Of a stretch of 36,032 nucleotides of DNA, positions 586 to 30,016 are shown one piece after another. The position numbers and the translations under genes were made by a program. Numbering within the stretch: the first letter of the stretch is position 1; every line of letters begins with the position of its first letter. Below the pieces are notes generated by a model that saw nothing but the letters and a program-made list of their open reading frames with translations, did not search any database and was not told the DNA's origin. Source of the stretch: Candidatus Methylomirabilota bacterium (lineage in GTDB: Bacteria; Methylomirabilota; Methylomirabilia; Methylomirabilales; CSP1-5); NCBI GenBank assembly GCA_027293415.1, contig JAPUFX010000134.1, positions 1 through 36,032 of the forward strand, in the 5' to 3' direction.

Positions 586-2088
586 CTAGCCGCGTCTCAG
601 TCCTTCGCGACGGGCCGCGAGCGTCCACGCGGATCCAGCGACACCCCGGCCTACGGGGGCTGCGGGCCTCCGTTCCTGCTCGGCAATGTGTGCATGAATC
701 GCGGCGGCCACGATTGCGACATCCTTGTGGCGGGGCTCGCCGCCCTCCTGCTGCGCCAAAAACCTGTCGATGAATGTAGTATCCATGTCTCCCTCCACGA
801 ACCGAGGGTCCGACATGACCTCGAAGAGGAAAGAGACCGTGGTCTTGATCCCGGCAACGAGATAATCCTGCAACGCCTGCCGCATCCGGCTGATGGCCTC
901 GGGCCGATCTTTCCCCCAGGCGACGAGCTTGGATATCAGGGGATCGTAATAGATCGGCACCTCAAATCCCTCGTAGACCCCGCTGTCATTCCGGATGCCT
1001 GGCGCACTCGGGGGTCGATAGAGGGTGATCCTTCCGGGAAAGGGAGTAAAGCGGTTGGTCGGATCCTCAGCATAGATCCGGCACTCGATCGCATGGCCCC
1101 GCGGCTGCACCTCCTCTTGACGCAGGGAGAGGGACTCTCCGGCGGCGATCCGCACCTGGCTCTTGACCAAGTCGATCCCCGTGGTGAGCTCGGTCACCGG
1201 ATGTTCCACCTGCAGGCGGGCGTTGATCTCCAAGAAATAAAAATTCCGGTCGGTATCGACCAAGAACTCCACGGTCCCCGCATTCTGGTAGCGGCAACCT
1301 TTGGCCAAAGCCACCGCGGCCTCTCCCATCCGCCGCCTGAGGTCTGGCGTCATGAAGGGAGAGGGGGACTCCTCCACGACCTTTTGATGCCGGCGCTGCA
1401 GGGAACACTCACGCTCTCCGAGATAGAGCGTGTGACCCGTGGCATCGGCAAGGATCTGCATCTCGATGTGCCGCGGACGGGTCAGATACTTCTCAACGAA
1501 GATGGCATCGTCACCGAAAGAGGATTGCCCCTCCGAGCGGGCTGCCCGAATGGCCGACTGAAGCTCGGCCTCTTCCCCGACAATCCGCATCCCCTTTCCC
1601 CCGCCGCCGGCTGCGGCCTTGATGAGGAGCGGAAAGCCGATCTCCTGTGCCCGCGGGAGGATCTCTTCATCGCGCAGATTTTGGTCGGTCCCAGGCACGG
1701 TCGGCACCCCGACTTGCTTGGCCAGGCGGCGCGAGGCGGTCTTGGATCCACACAGTCTCAAGGTTTCGGAGGAGGGGCCGATGAAGACGAACCCTGCCTG
1801 TTCGCAGGCCTCGGCAAAGGTGGGATTTTCCGCGAGAAAGCCATAGCCGGGGTGGATGGCCTCAGCCTGACTCTGCCGGGCAATCTCAAGGATCCGATCC
1901 ACCCGGAGGTAACTCTCGGCCGAGGGAGATGCACCCACCCAATAGGCCTCATCTGCCTTTCGCACGTGCAGCGCCGAGCGGTCGGCATCGGAGTAAATCG
2001 CCACCGTCCCGATCCCCATCTCCCGGCAGGCCCGGATGACCCGCAGCGCGATCTCTCCGCGATTGGCAATGAGTATCTTTCGAAACAT
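586..2088 (-). CDS. accC: Biotin carboxylase subunit of acyl-CoA carboxylase (AccC-like, ATP-grasp)
   Basis: It carboxylates the biotin of the carrier protein using ATP and bicarbonate, in the cytoplasm. The 500-residue protein starts MFRKILIANRGEIALRVIRA, the family's hallmark N-terminus. GYGFLAEN is at 81-88, the glycine-rich ATP loop KAAAGGGGKGMR at 157-168, and the bicarbonate/active-site segments ECSLQRRHQKVVEE (about 228-240) and EINARLQVEHPVTE (287-300). Length suits the free-standing subunit (445-500 residues). It lies between a small S23-family gene and the biotin carrier, on the same strand as the carboxyltransferase, so it probably serves a propionyl- or methylmalonyl-type carboxylase rather than fatty acid synthesis. 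The only purine-rich tract before the ATG is the GGGGGAC heptad array, which may stand in for a ribosome binding site. Confidence 0.95.
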   Translation of the reverse strand: MFRKILIANRGEIALRVIRACREMGIGTVAIYSDADRSALHVRKADEAYWVGASPSAESYLRVDRILEIARQSQAEAIHPGYGFLAENPTFAEACEQAGFVFIGPSSETLRLCGSKTASRRLAKQVGVPTVPGTDQNLRDEEILPRAQEIGFPLLIKAAAGGGGKGMRIVGEEAELQSAIRAARSEGQSSFGDDAIFVEKYLTRPRHIEMQILADATGHTLYLGERECSLQRRHQKVVEESPSPFMTPDLRRRMGEAAVALAKGCRYQNAGTVEFLVDTDRNFYFLEINARLQVEHPVTELTTGIDLVKSQVRIAAGESLSLRQEEVQPRGHAIECRIYAEDPTNRFTPFPGRITLYRPPSAPGIRNDSGVYEGFEVPIYYDPLISKLVAWGKDRPEAISRMRQALQDYLVAGIKTTVSFLFEVMSDPRFVEGDMDTTFIDRFLAQQEGGEPRHKDVAIVAAAIHAHIAEQERRPAAPVGRGVAGSAWTLAARREGLRRG

Positions 2089-2095
2089 GTCTTCA

Positions 2096-2144
2096 GTCCC
2101 CCGTCCCCCGTCCCCCGTCCCCTATCCCCAGTGCCCAGTGGTAG
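2096..2144. repeat. Heptanucleotide array, left arm flanking the S23-family gene
   Basis: Seven back-to-back 7-base words: three perfect GTCCCCC, then GTCCCCT, ATCCCCA, GTGCCCA and GTGGTAG. The array runs into the last codons of the S23-family gene. It is inverted and similar to the array at 2611-2645, so the two could pair in RNA with the S23-family gene in the loop. Confidence 0.75.
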
Positions 2145-2559
2145 TCCTACGTCTCACGTGCCCGTCTGCCGCCCGCAATCTTCTCCCTCCGGCCTCCGCT
2201 TGACGACCTAGGTAGCCCAGGAATCCGCCGATAAGAGCTCGGATTTCTTCCAACTTGGCGTATAGTTTTTGCAAATCACGCGACGGCAGTTGGCCACGAT
2301 CTAGGGCCAAGTATAGATGCGATTGAAGTTCCGCGGCTGATCGCCTCGCATAAACGAGAAAACGAGCAAACTCCCCGTCAGATTGCGACTCAAAGCCTTC
2401 TGCAATGTTCGCCATGATCGAAATAGAAGCCCGATCGATCTGCTCCTTCAAAGCCCCGTCCCGGGATAATGAGCGGCTGCGGGTCACCTGGACCAGCATT
2501 CCTGCCAGCTTCCTTGCCTCCTGCCAAGCCTGAATATCTTCGAACCGTTCGATCTTCAC
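2122..2559 (-). CDS. Four-helix-bundle protein of the S23 / 23S rRNA intervening-sequence family
   Basis: The protein has 145 residues. It shows the family pattern near the start (FEDIQAWQEARKLA), a central helix with LKEQIDRASISIMANIAEGFE, and the typical FARFLVYARRSAAELQSHLYLA stretch followed by LEEIRALIGGFLGYL. Known relatives are encoded in 23S rRNA intervening sequences, as lone intergenic genes, or (as Avd) with diversity-generating retroelements; their molecular role is unclear. The gene interrupts a carboxylase operon, between carboxyltransferase and biotin carboxylase. It lies between two inverted arrays of 7-base words, and its last codons (TTTGHWG) are encoded by the repeat itself. 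The conserved domain ends near residue 118, so the arginine-rich tail is probably acquired. Family call is strong; function is unknown. Confidence 0.88.
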   Translation of the reverse strand: MKIERFEDIQAWQEARKLAGMLVQVTRSRSLSRDGALKEQIDRASISIMANIAEGFESQSDGEFARFLVYARRSAAELQSHLYLALDRGQLPSRDLQKLYAKLEEIRALIGGFLGYLGRQAEAGGRRLRAADGHVRRRTTTGHWG

Positions 2560-2610
2560 GTCGAGTCTCTCTGAGGGAGTATCGGTGAGAAAGGGGAGAC
2601 CGTTGGCGAA

Positions 2611-2645
2611 CTGAGACAGGGGACCGGGGACTTCGGACCGCGGAC
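2611..2645. repeat. Heptanucleotide array, right arm flanking the S23-family gene
   Basis: Five 7-base words ending in GAC (CTGAGAC, AGGGGAC, CGGGGAC, TTCGGAC, CGCGGAC) lie between the carboxyltransferase stop and the S23-family gene. The reverse complement matches the GTCCCCC-type array at 2096-2144 with few mismatches, giving a stem about 30 bases long around the gene. Confidence 0.75.
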
Positions 2646-2647
2646 TC

Positions 2648-4198
<1,551 letters not shown>

Positions 4199-4751: not shown

Positions 4752-5006
4752 TGCCCCTCCAACTAATTCTTCCTAAACACCGCGAGCTTCTCCAGGGGCA
4801 CTGAGGGGTTGTAGGAGTGTTCCTCCCCGAGGCTCCCCTACGCCTGGGGGGTGCTCAGCGAGGCAAGCGCCGAGCGCCGAAGGGGGGCCTGCCCCCCGAG
4901 TACTGACTGTGGACCGATGACCGACGACCGAAAAAGGACCCCTTGGTCCCTTACGGTCATCGGATAACGGTCAACGGGCATCGGTCGCTAGTTGGTGCGG
5001 CACTAG
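4748..5006. mobile_element. MITE-like element, copy 1 (CTAG-ended inverted termini)
   Basis: The termini are inverted and similar: CTAGTGCCCCTCCAACT at 4748-4764 and, read on the other strand, CTAGTGCCGCACCAACT ending at 5006 (14 of 17 identical). An internal core of about 85 bases (4793-4879) recurs in inverted orientation at 12754-12838 with only a few differences. No transposase is encoded. CTAG at both ends fits the known IS630 preference for CTAG with TA duplication, so a non-autonomous Tc1/IS630-type element is likely. The right half holds an internal heptad-word hairpin. The left CTAG contains the stop codon of the response regulator. The rest of 4752-5141 contains no gene. Confidence 0.72.
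4904..4987. repeat. Heptanucleotide hairpin nested in MITE copy 1
   Basis: GACCGAT/GACCGAC-type 7-base words (from 4911) face inverted words (ACGGTCA, TCGGATA) after a short loop. CCGATGACCG pairs perfectly with CGGTCATCGG. It is absent from MITE copy 2, so it was probably gained separately. Confidence 0.65.
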
Positions 5007-5141
5007 CCCCATCCCTCGACCATTACGCATTCTCTAGGCCCGCTCCGGCACGGCCAATACGCAAGCATCCCCCGATCAACAGCCGCGGCCCCGCAAGCCC
5101 TTCAAAAGCCTGTCTTTGCATGGCTTCTGGCGATTTTCTCG

Positions 5142-5169
5142 TTGACATCTTCCCCTGTAAAACTAAAAT
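5142..5169 (+). promoter_or_regulatory. Sigma-70 promoter of tRNA-Leu
   Basis: A perfect -35 TTGACA (5142-5147), a 16-base spacer and -10 TAAAAT (5164-5169, 5 of 6) end 12 bases before the first base of the tRNA. Confidence 0.75.
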
Positions 5170-5181
5170 AATAAAGCCCGT

Positions 5182-5266
<85 letters not shown>

Positions 5267-5615
5267 AGGACTCTCGCACGTATGCTCTCGCTCCTCTATC
5301 CCCGCCAACGCTGCCGCCCCCACGGCCAGAGATGCGCGGGCAGGAGACGAGTCGGGAGGTGTTTCTGTCCCCGAAGCCGTGATGCACATGAACAGCCATT
5401 CATCGATGGGAATAGTGTCAGAGGAAGGTGCACCATTGTCGGGACCGCGGACCTGCGGGCCGGCGGGAATTTCCCGAGGACTCTGGATGTTCACTGCGAT
5501 ACAGGAATGTGAAATAAAGCCCTCGACAACCCGTCAAACATGGTAGGGAGATGAGACCCCAGCTCAGAAGATAAACCAAGAGACGGGCGGCGAACGCGGT
5601 AAGGAGGGAAAGGTG
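5267..5615. other. Gene-free spacer between tRNA-Leu and the envelope gene set
   Basis: About 350 bases with no convincing gene, RNA or repeat. Open frames here overlap the tRNA or encode low-complexity translations. The only clear signal is AAGGAGG at 5601-5607, the ribosome binding site of the following lipoprotein. A promoter for that gene presumably lies here, but I cannot pick one out. Confidence 0.6.
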
Positions 5616-24025: not shown

Positions 24026-24188
24026 CGTTATTCGATGACCGTTGATCTGTGACCGTTATTCGACGACCGATCACCGTAAACCGATGACCGTAAAAGATTA
24101 ATAGATACTTCTTCGGCCGTCGAAAGTCGGTCAACTATCATCGGTACTCGGTCTTCGGTCATCGGTGGTCGGTCACCGGTGGACGTCG
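24026..24188. repeat. Long heptanucleotide hairpin between tpiA and secG
   Basis: Ten left-arm words (GTTATTC, GATGACC, GTTGATC, TGTGACC, GTTATTC, GACGACC, GATCACC, GTAAACC, GATGACC, GTAAAAG) run in perfect 7-base register. After a 30-base loop come ten inverted words (TCGGTCA, ACTATCA, TCGGTAC, TCGGTCT, TCGGTCA, TCGGTGG, TCGGTCA, CCGGTGG and so on). It is the best example of the family in the window. Confidence 0.85.
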
Positions 24189-26245: not shown

Positions 26246-26340
26246 CGTTCATGGTTGAGGGTTCATGGTTCAGAGTTCAGCCCAGCGTCAGTTCAGTCCG
26301 CATCACTTCACCATGAACCATGAACCGTGAACTGTGAACC
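26246..26340. repeat. Heptanucleotide hairpin (GTTCATG words) between gap and pgk
   Basis: GTTCATG, GTTGAGG, GTTCATG, GTTCAGA, GTTCAGC on the left; ACCATGA, ACCATGA, ACCGTGA, ACTGTGA on the right. The same word family, in the same arrangement, occurs at 33701-33795. Confidence 0.8.
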
Positions 26341-26343
26341 AAT

Positions 26344-28650: not shown

Positions 28651-28683
28651 CTCTTCTCTCGCTCTTCTCTCGCTCTTCTCTCG
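28651..28683. repeat. Three perfect tandem 11-base units upstream of the dksA-like gene
   Basis: CTCTTCTCTCG is repeated three times without change. On the transcribed strand this is purine-rich (CGAGAGAAGAG) and merges with the ribosome binding site of the following GTG start. Confidence 0.8.
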
Positions 28684-29829: not shown

Positions 29830-29842
29830 CACGAAACCCGCG

Positions 29843-30014
29843 CTATCATCTGTCCGCTGTCAGCAATCAGCAAGAAAATAATTAAGCGGTGCCGCTCATG
29901 TATGTTCGCCGCCCCCACCCCTGCAACTTTCCTACGGCCGATCTTCCAAGCTTGCCAGCATACCAGCCTCTTTGCTCCTTCTTGCTGACTGCTGACGGCT
30001 GATTGCTGACCGCT
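29843..30014. repeat. Heptanucleotide hairpin (GTCAGCA words) between proA and nadD
   Basis: The left arm is CTGTCCG, CTGTCAG, CAATCAG, CAAG (29850-29873). The right arm is CTTGCTG, ACTGCTG, ACGGCTG, ATTGCTG, ACCGCTC (29985-30014). The loop of about 110 bases shows no gene. Confidence 0.75.
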
Positions 30015-30016
30015 CG

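Follow-up and report, generated by a model that had tools for sequence, protein, structure and literature searches.

An S23 gene between inverted heptad arrays in a carboxylase operon

Why should a gene of the S23 family, known from the intervening sequences (IVSs) of 23S rRNA, lie between two genes of a carboxylase operon, with an inverted array of heptads on either side? The question is raised by one end of a 36,032-nt stretch of Candidatus Methylomirabilota DNA (contig JAPUFX010000134.1), which as a whole is called the window below. The features on which the argument depends are:

586..2088, minus strand: biotin carboxylase (accC-like), the host operon gene downstream of the cassette (PF02786/PF00289/PF02785)
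2087..2140, no strand: downstream arm, a heptad array with plus-strand unit GTCCCCN that abuts the accC start codon (TRF, lag-7 scan, shuffles)
2122..2559, minus strand: gene for a four-helix-bundle protein of the S23 / 23S_rRNA_IVP family, 145 aa from a GTG start (PF05635, TIGR02436, translation)
2615..2646, no strand: upstream arm, a degenerate heptad array that abuts the stop codon of the carboxyltransferase gene and is inverted with respect to the other arm (inverted repeat, shuffles)
2648..4198, minus strand: carboxyltransferase (accD-like), the host operon gene upstream of the cassette (PF01039, E 1e-203)
24026..24180, no strand: protein-less heptad hairpin, CCGAYGA unit (TRF; orthologous sites)
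26247..26342, no strand: protein-less heptad hairpin, GTTCANN unit (TRF, orthologous sites, lag-7 scan)
29846..30014, no strand: protein-less heptad hairpin, TCAGCNN unit (orthologous sites)

The initial annotation described a four-helix-bundle gene set between two inverted heptad arrays, and the description holds. In profile searches the ORF matched PF05635 (E 1.9e-29, 102.4 bits versus a cut-off of 33.8) and TIGR02436, 'four helix bundle protein' (E 1.5e-27, 96 bits versus a cut-off of 24). Gene and arms together take up the whole intergenic spacer, which is bounded by the carboxyltransferase stop codon at 2648-2650 and by the start codon of biotin carboxylase at 2086-2088. The core of the downstream array, about four copies of GTCCCCC at 2096-2122, has 100% matches at TRF period 7, and a lag-7 scan follows the array as degenerate units to 2140. 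Both the S23 stop codon, at 2122-2124, and the final few codons fall within these degenerate heptads, so that the end of the gene is indeed made of the repeat, as had been proposed. The units of the upstream arm are GTCCGCG, GTCCGAA, GTCCCCG and GTCCCCT. With 1000 dinucleotide-preserving shuffles of the flanks as the null model, the inverted score of the arms was matched in 1/1000, and the 7-periodicity in 0/1000 for the left arm, 9/1000 for the right arm and 0/1000 for both arms jointly. The locus has the IVS trait of an S23 ORF bounded by terminal inverted repeats, and it fits the class proposed here, in which an S23 gene is flanked by inverted arrays of one common 7- or 8-nt unit. It does not lie inside a 23S rRNA gene: its neighbours are accC and accD, and an Rfam search found no rRNA in the window.

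Matched arms at S23 genes of many phyla

A profile search found four PF05635 genes in the genome, and all four adjoin heptad arrays; both flanks are readable for three of them, and one side for the fourth (C183), which is at a contig end. The four loci have four different units, of GTCCNNN, TCAGCNN, GTTCANN and ATTTCGN type. For the order as a whole, 70 S23 loci from this genome and from its relatives were compared, over 180-nt flanks, with control ORFs from the same loci. Matched inverted arms were found at 62/70 S23 genes versus 5/187 control ORFs. Period 7 was present in 97/140 S23 flanks versus 52/374 control flanks, and period 8 in 24/140 versus 11/374; other periods were rare. In a multi-phylum set, which comprises the 80 best matches to one S23 alignment/motif in GTDB representative genomes and is not a random sample, matched inverted arms accompanied 56/80 S23 genes, as against 9/152 controls and 1/240 shuffles. 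This set takes in Elusimicrobia, candidate phyla (e.g., Daviesbacteria and WOR-3), Planctomycetota, Bacteroidota, Bacillota, Chloroflexota, Acidobacteriota, Nitrospirota, several proteobacterial groups and Methanophagales archaea. S23 loci on cyanobacterial plasmids had matched inverted arms in 6/6 cases. In the order and multi-phylum sets the enrichment was limited to periods 7 and 8, and the loci lacking arms at the threshold used numbered 8/70 and 24/80, respectively. No S23 locus lay within rRNA in the 17 sources scanned with Rfam, and a crude, unvalidated motif scan over all S23 loci of the analysis found none in rRNA. The architecture claimed for the window is right, and is far more general than the initial annotation supposed.

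One unit is common to both arms of an S23 locus, and units differ among loci. Unit similarity rose with the identity of the S23 proteins, both for pairs from different genomes (rho 0.22) and among the multi-phylum loci alone (rho 0.15), with 0/999 permutations in each case, and S23 pairs more than 70% identical mostly have the same unit. On the S23 tree, period 7/8 requires 12 changes, compared with a minimum of 15 and a mean of 20.3 in 500 shuffles. Unit and period follow the protein lineage, a point absent from the initial annotation. The clade with the TCAGCNN/AGCNNTC unit includes Methylomirabilota-like genomes, Geothrix, Methylobacillus and Paludibacteraceae; its three genomes outside the order with this unit had 14-35 TCAGCNN array matches each, and such matches also occurred in 5/24 other genomes. 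AGTGNNN, considered as a second cross-phylum unit pattern, was not specific enough and was rejected: several genomes gave large counts for the reversed pattern.

The arms had also been taken for a heptad-repeat stem. They are inverted, and 2615-2646 is 78% complementary to 2095-2126, but because the right arm is degenerate the pairing would be imperfect. The in-register match between arms was 0.807, versus 0.806 with shuffled unit order (p 0.83); a match no better than that of shuffled order indicates that the unit is conserved, not pairing between specific units. The arms thus show no covariation, and a selected perfect stem was rejected. Heptad arms (32 nt) had a median of 4.57 units and octad arms (38 nt) one of 4.75, estimated after periodic arms had been selected, so that low counts are biased upward. 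These similar counts at 32 and 38 nt indicate that unit number is kept, not length. The lack of covariation and the constant number of units per arm fit protein sites better than a selected stem. The solved S23 structures 2GSC and 2RLD have five chains each, and two papers describe Xcc0516 as five four-helix bundles (Lin 2006 as cited in PMC10053308; also PMC4990558). Some 4.6-4.75 units per arm, taken together with pentamers, suggest one unit per S23 subunit.

We think it probable that the window locus is a copy of a mobile S23 cassette whose arms are putative cognate S23-binding arrays, and that protein-less hairpins and rRNA IVSs are other forms of it. The cassette would be compact, about 430-580 nt, with one S23 gene between two inverted arrays, each of some 4-5 copies of a 7-nt unit (8-nt in some lineages); the cassettes measured are about 485 nt long (10-90%: 429-584). 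The arms would most likely be cognate binding-site arrays for the cassette's own S23 pentamer, with one unit per subunit, and recognition of the arms may lead to spread of the cassette, and of protein-less hairpins of the same unit, into short intergenic spaces. In this genome a GTCCNNN-type copy lies between accD and accC, where relatives have other hairpins; in other bacteria the cassette would have spread into 23S rRNA helices, to be cut out there by RNase III. Counting against the proposal are the armless S23 loci of both sets, the array-rich genomes and the strand bias described below, the upward bias of the unit counts, and an S23 protein with no known catalytic site. The proposal is open to direct test, since each S23 should bind its own unit, with about one unit per pentamer subunit, and if it is true the unit-protein pairs are a natural code to decipher.

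Presence, absence and unit turnover at orthologous sites

The accD-accC spacers of four genomes of the genus (G002, G004, G005 and G006) have no S23 gene and contain hairpins of GTTCANN (G002, G004 and G005) or TCAGCNN (G006). More distant relatives have GGGTANA or TCAGCNN hairpins at this site, and G028 has a short spacer of 30-odd nt. The S23 gene is not, then, conserved between the carboxylase genes; relatives have other hairpins there. With this and the heptad flanks found at S23 genes elsewhere, both of the checks that the initial annotation set against its own reading turned out in its favour. The C11 cassette is present in G000, the genome of the window, and in G004 and G006; in G002 the junction consists of the stop codon TAG, CC, and the start codon ATG. 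The C57 cassette of G000 is missing from G004, which has a plain 100-nt spacer between flanks that are 94-96% identical. At the C57 site of a further genome (G001:C97, L203 3455-3720) there is a protein-less octad hairpin (GCTAGNAN) nested in TCAGC-type arm remnants, and its octad resembles the arms of a G004 S23 gene (L074).

Among S23 pairs that are 70-80% identical, 19/26 lack any flank homology; those of the TCAGC clade retain the unit, and cassettes of the same unit occur, that is, in unrelated contexts. The S23 protein is under purifying selection (dN/dS 0.08-0.18).

The window contains 16 arrays of period 7; across the remaining periods between 5 and 11, the only arrays are two with period 11. 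At the site orthologous to 24026-24180, the hairpin of G002 has GTCCNNN, which is also the unit type found in the window cassette, and at the 26247-26342 site relatives have other units or nested units. The hairpin at 29833-30016 is TCAGCNN in G000 versus GTTCANN in G004, with flanks 97-98% identical, a case of fast unit turnover in a fixed slot. These comparisons support the view of gene and arms as a single cassette, with the remaining heptad hairpins as protein-less versions of the same sort of element. A perfect 11-nt tandem repeat, CTCTTCTCTCG x3, at 28651-28683 is unrelated to the heptads.

The same data bear on the possibility that S23 is a trans-acting RNA regulator, a ring that would bind heptad arrays in UTRs or spacers, as TRAP binds spaced triplets, with protein-less arrays as the targets of its regulon. 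Such a regulator would account for the 4.6-4.75 units per arm at both periods with a pentameric S23, for the unit-protein coupling, and for dispersed arrays with matching units. However, units switch freely at orthologous spacers of close species, even between flanks that are 97-98% identical, so that targets are not conserved as those of a regulon would be, and a regulator has no need of the paired inverted arrangement. We regard this explanation as unlikely.

A census of TCAGCNN x3 and GTTCANN x3 patterns gave counts of up to more than 100 per genome in the S23-bearing clades. These arrays numbered zero in the f3 family, which has no S23, and zero in 25/25 f7 genomes, which have no S23 above the cut-off (three marginal matches, in two genomes). 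Five genomes of S23-bearing clades (G026, G022, G010, G029 and G003) have many arrays and no detected S23 gene. One of them, G026, is complete in one contig of 2,752,854 bases and has 109 TCAGCNN array matches, with a PF05635 gene undetectable. Five array-rich genomes without detected S23, one of them complete, indicate that arrays can persist after loss of the gene or be supplied from another source. If slippage made heptad hairpins in permissive spacers and S23 genes were tolerated inside them by chance, arrays would be expected to be mostly intergenic and variable in the number of unit copies, as they are. This neutral reading leaves unexplained, though, the matched units in both arms, the cross-phylum link of unit and period with the protein tree, the absence of both tested arrays from f3 and f7, and the purifying selection on S23; it is already disfavoured, and we consider it very improbable.

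Known elements and the means of spread

Elements of REP/REPIN type, with their RAYT protein, resemble the S23 cassettes: they too are short inverted elements, dispersed and associated with a single protein lineage, and their protein-less copies predominate. They differ in that RAYT is a Y1 nuclease, whereas the elements described here have tandem heptads and S23, for which we know of no catalytic or nuclease site. The window cassette encodes S23 alone, with no Y1 gene in the element. As a common mobiliser, a reverse transcriptase or a Y1 transposase was rejected, because neither tracks the arrays across 60 relatives: array-rich genomes without a detected reverse transcriptase are G001, G002, G022, G027 and G034, those without a detected Y1 are G001, G005, G027 and G034, and reverse transcriptase or Y1 genes also occur in array-free genomes.

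S23 is also a distant relative of Avd, the accessory protein of DGRs, with matches to the Avd profile NF033474 at E 4e-5 to 2e-4, below its cut-off, and with a structural similarity reported in PMC10053308. Avd, unlike S23 here, acts with a reverse transcriptase and template/variable repeats. No adjacent reverse transcriptase with such repeats was found at the window cassette, and the single reverse transcriptase of G000 is on another contig. The kinship with Avd is what speaks for a retro- or REP-like mobilisation in which a reverse transcriptase or a REP/RAYT-type Y1 transposase would move the arrays with S23 as an Avd-like helper. Set against the array-rich genomes that lack a detected reverse transcriptase or Y1, and the array-free genomes that have one, this mechanism seems quite unlikely to us. 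Two marginal S23-like matches beside reverse transcriptases (L033 and L035, in G042 and G036), which fall below the arm thresholds, are probably DGR Avd genes.

The closest likeness is to the 23S rRNA IVSs of Coxiella and Leptospira, which share a single S23-family ORF, terminal inverted repeats, a length of 428-444 nt and a sporadic distribution (PMC4990558). In Coxiella, the IVS is an S23p element of 428 nt that has inverted repeats of 28 bp at its termini and is excised by RNase III; three GACAGAT heptamers plus GACAGAA precede its S23p ORF, and these were taken as a local feature when published (PMC4990558). Tandem heptamers before the ORF are a further likeness, and the window cassette shares its architecture with the rRNA IVS, as had been proposed. 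We read the Coxiella IVS as the cassette architecture inserted in rRNA. The window copy differs in lying between protein genes.

The S23 gene is on the strand of its operon neighbours in 54 cases versus 8 on the opposite strand. Strand-blind DNA insertion would not be expected to give such a bias unless selection acted later, and the bias would favour a dependence on host transcription or an RNA stage. At its furthest, the arms would pair in the polycistronic mRNA, RNase III would cut the hairpin out as it does the 23S IVS, and S23 would protect or use the RNA, spread being secondary or of retro type. The Coxiella IVS, with the same gene, similar size, heptads and RNase III cutting (PMC4990558), the sense-strand bias, and the way the window cassette abuts the stop and start codons of its neighbours all agree with this. 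But the arms do not covary, a specific fold of the window cassette was set aside as weak (z -1.8 versus shuffles), and reverse transcriptase genes do not track the arrays, so that we hold an IVS-like life in mRNA to be possible but doubtful. The interpretation of the initial annotation is partly supported, and excision of the cassette from RNA is kept as its hypothetical part.

Dispersed, intergenic, degenerate heptads like those of the window occur in Xanthomonas (GGGANTN), in Nostoc (GGGGA(C/T)T, which we take to be the STRR) and in Beggiatoaceae (TAACTGA). The S23 cassettes described here differ from those repeats in bearing matching arms, and a term search of the Xanthomonas, Nostoc and Beggiatoaceae reports returned no mention of S23 genes. 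In Xanthomonas there are 70-75 convergent inverted pairs of GGGANTN heptads per genome (PMC4692102), and S23 cassettes of Xanthomonas codiaei and Pseudoxanthomonas have GGGGACC arms. The mobile cassette would join three subjects: the 'four helix bundle' (S23) family, the question of where 23S rRNA IVSs come from, and the abundant degenerate intergenic heptads of the Xanthomonas, Nostoc and Beggiatoa types. We are evenly divided on whether such cassettes make up a major class of prokaryotic mobile element that has so far gone unrecognised. Such a class would combine a pentameric nucleic-acid-binding protein with cognate inverted arms of 5 x 7 nt (or 5 x 8 nt), and would have lineage-specific protein-unit codes, many protein-less hairpins, 23S rRNA IVSs as its rRNA-inserted members, and movement that needs no resident reverse transcriptase or Y1. 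If there is such a class, it alone accounts for much of the small-hairpin content and spacer turnover of many genomes. In the openly searchable literature, to which the claim of novelty is limited, we found no paper that ties S23 genes to heptad arrays in general.

Three individual cassettes are of separate note. On a Nostoc edaphicum plasmid (L189 331-3312), a TAGGGAG-armed S23 cassette separates the beta gene of ribonucleotide reductase from the alpha gene and is on the strand opposite to theirs. In G017:C28 (L083 3931-6935) an S23 cassette lies, in the same orientation as its neighbours, between a reverse transcriptase gene and cas1/cas2-looking genes; cas loci with S23 genes have been recorded earlier (PMC3936711). 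Finally, the S23 gene of L080 (G011:C24), a neighbour of the octad clade on the tree, has possible 9-nt units (TCTNTCTGG) around it, in the flanks of 5001-5315.
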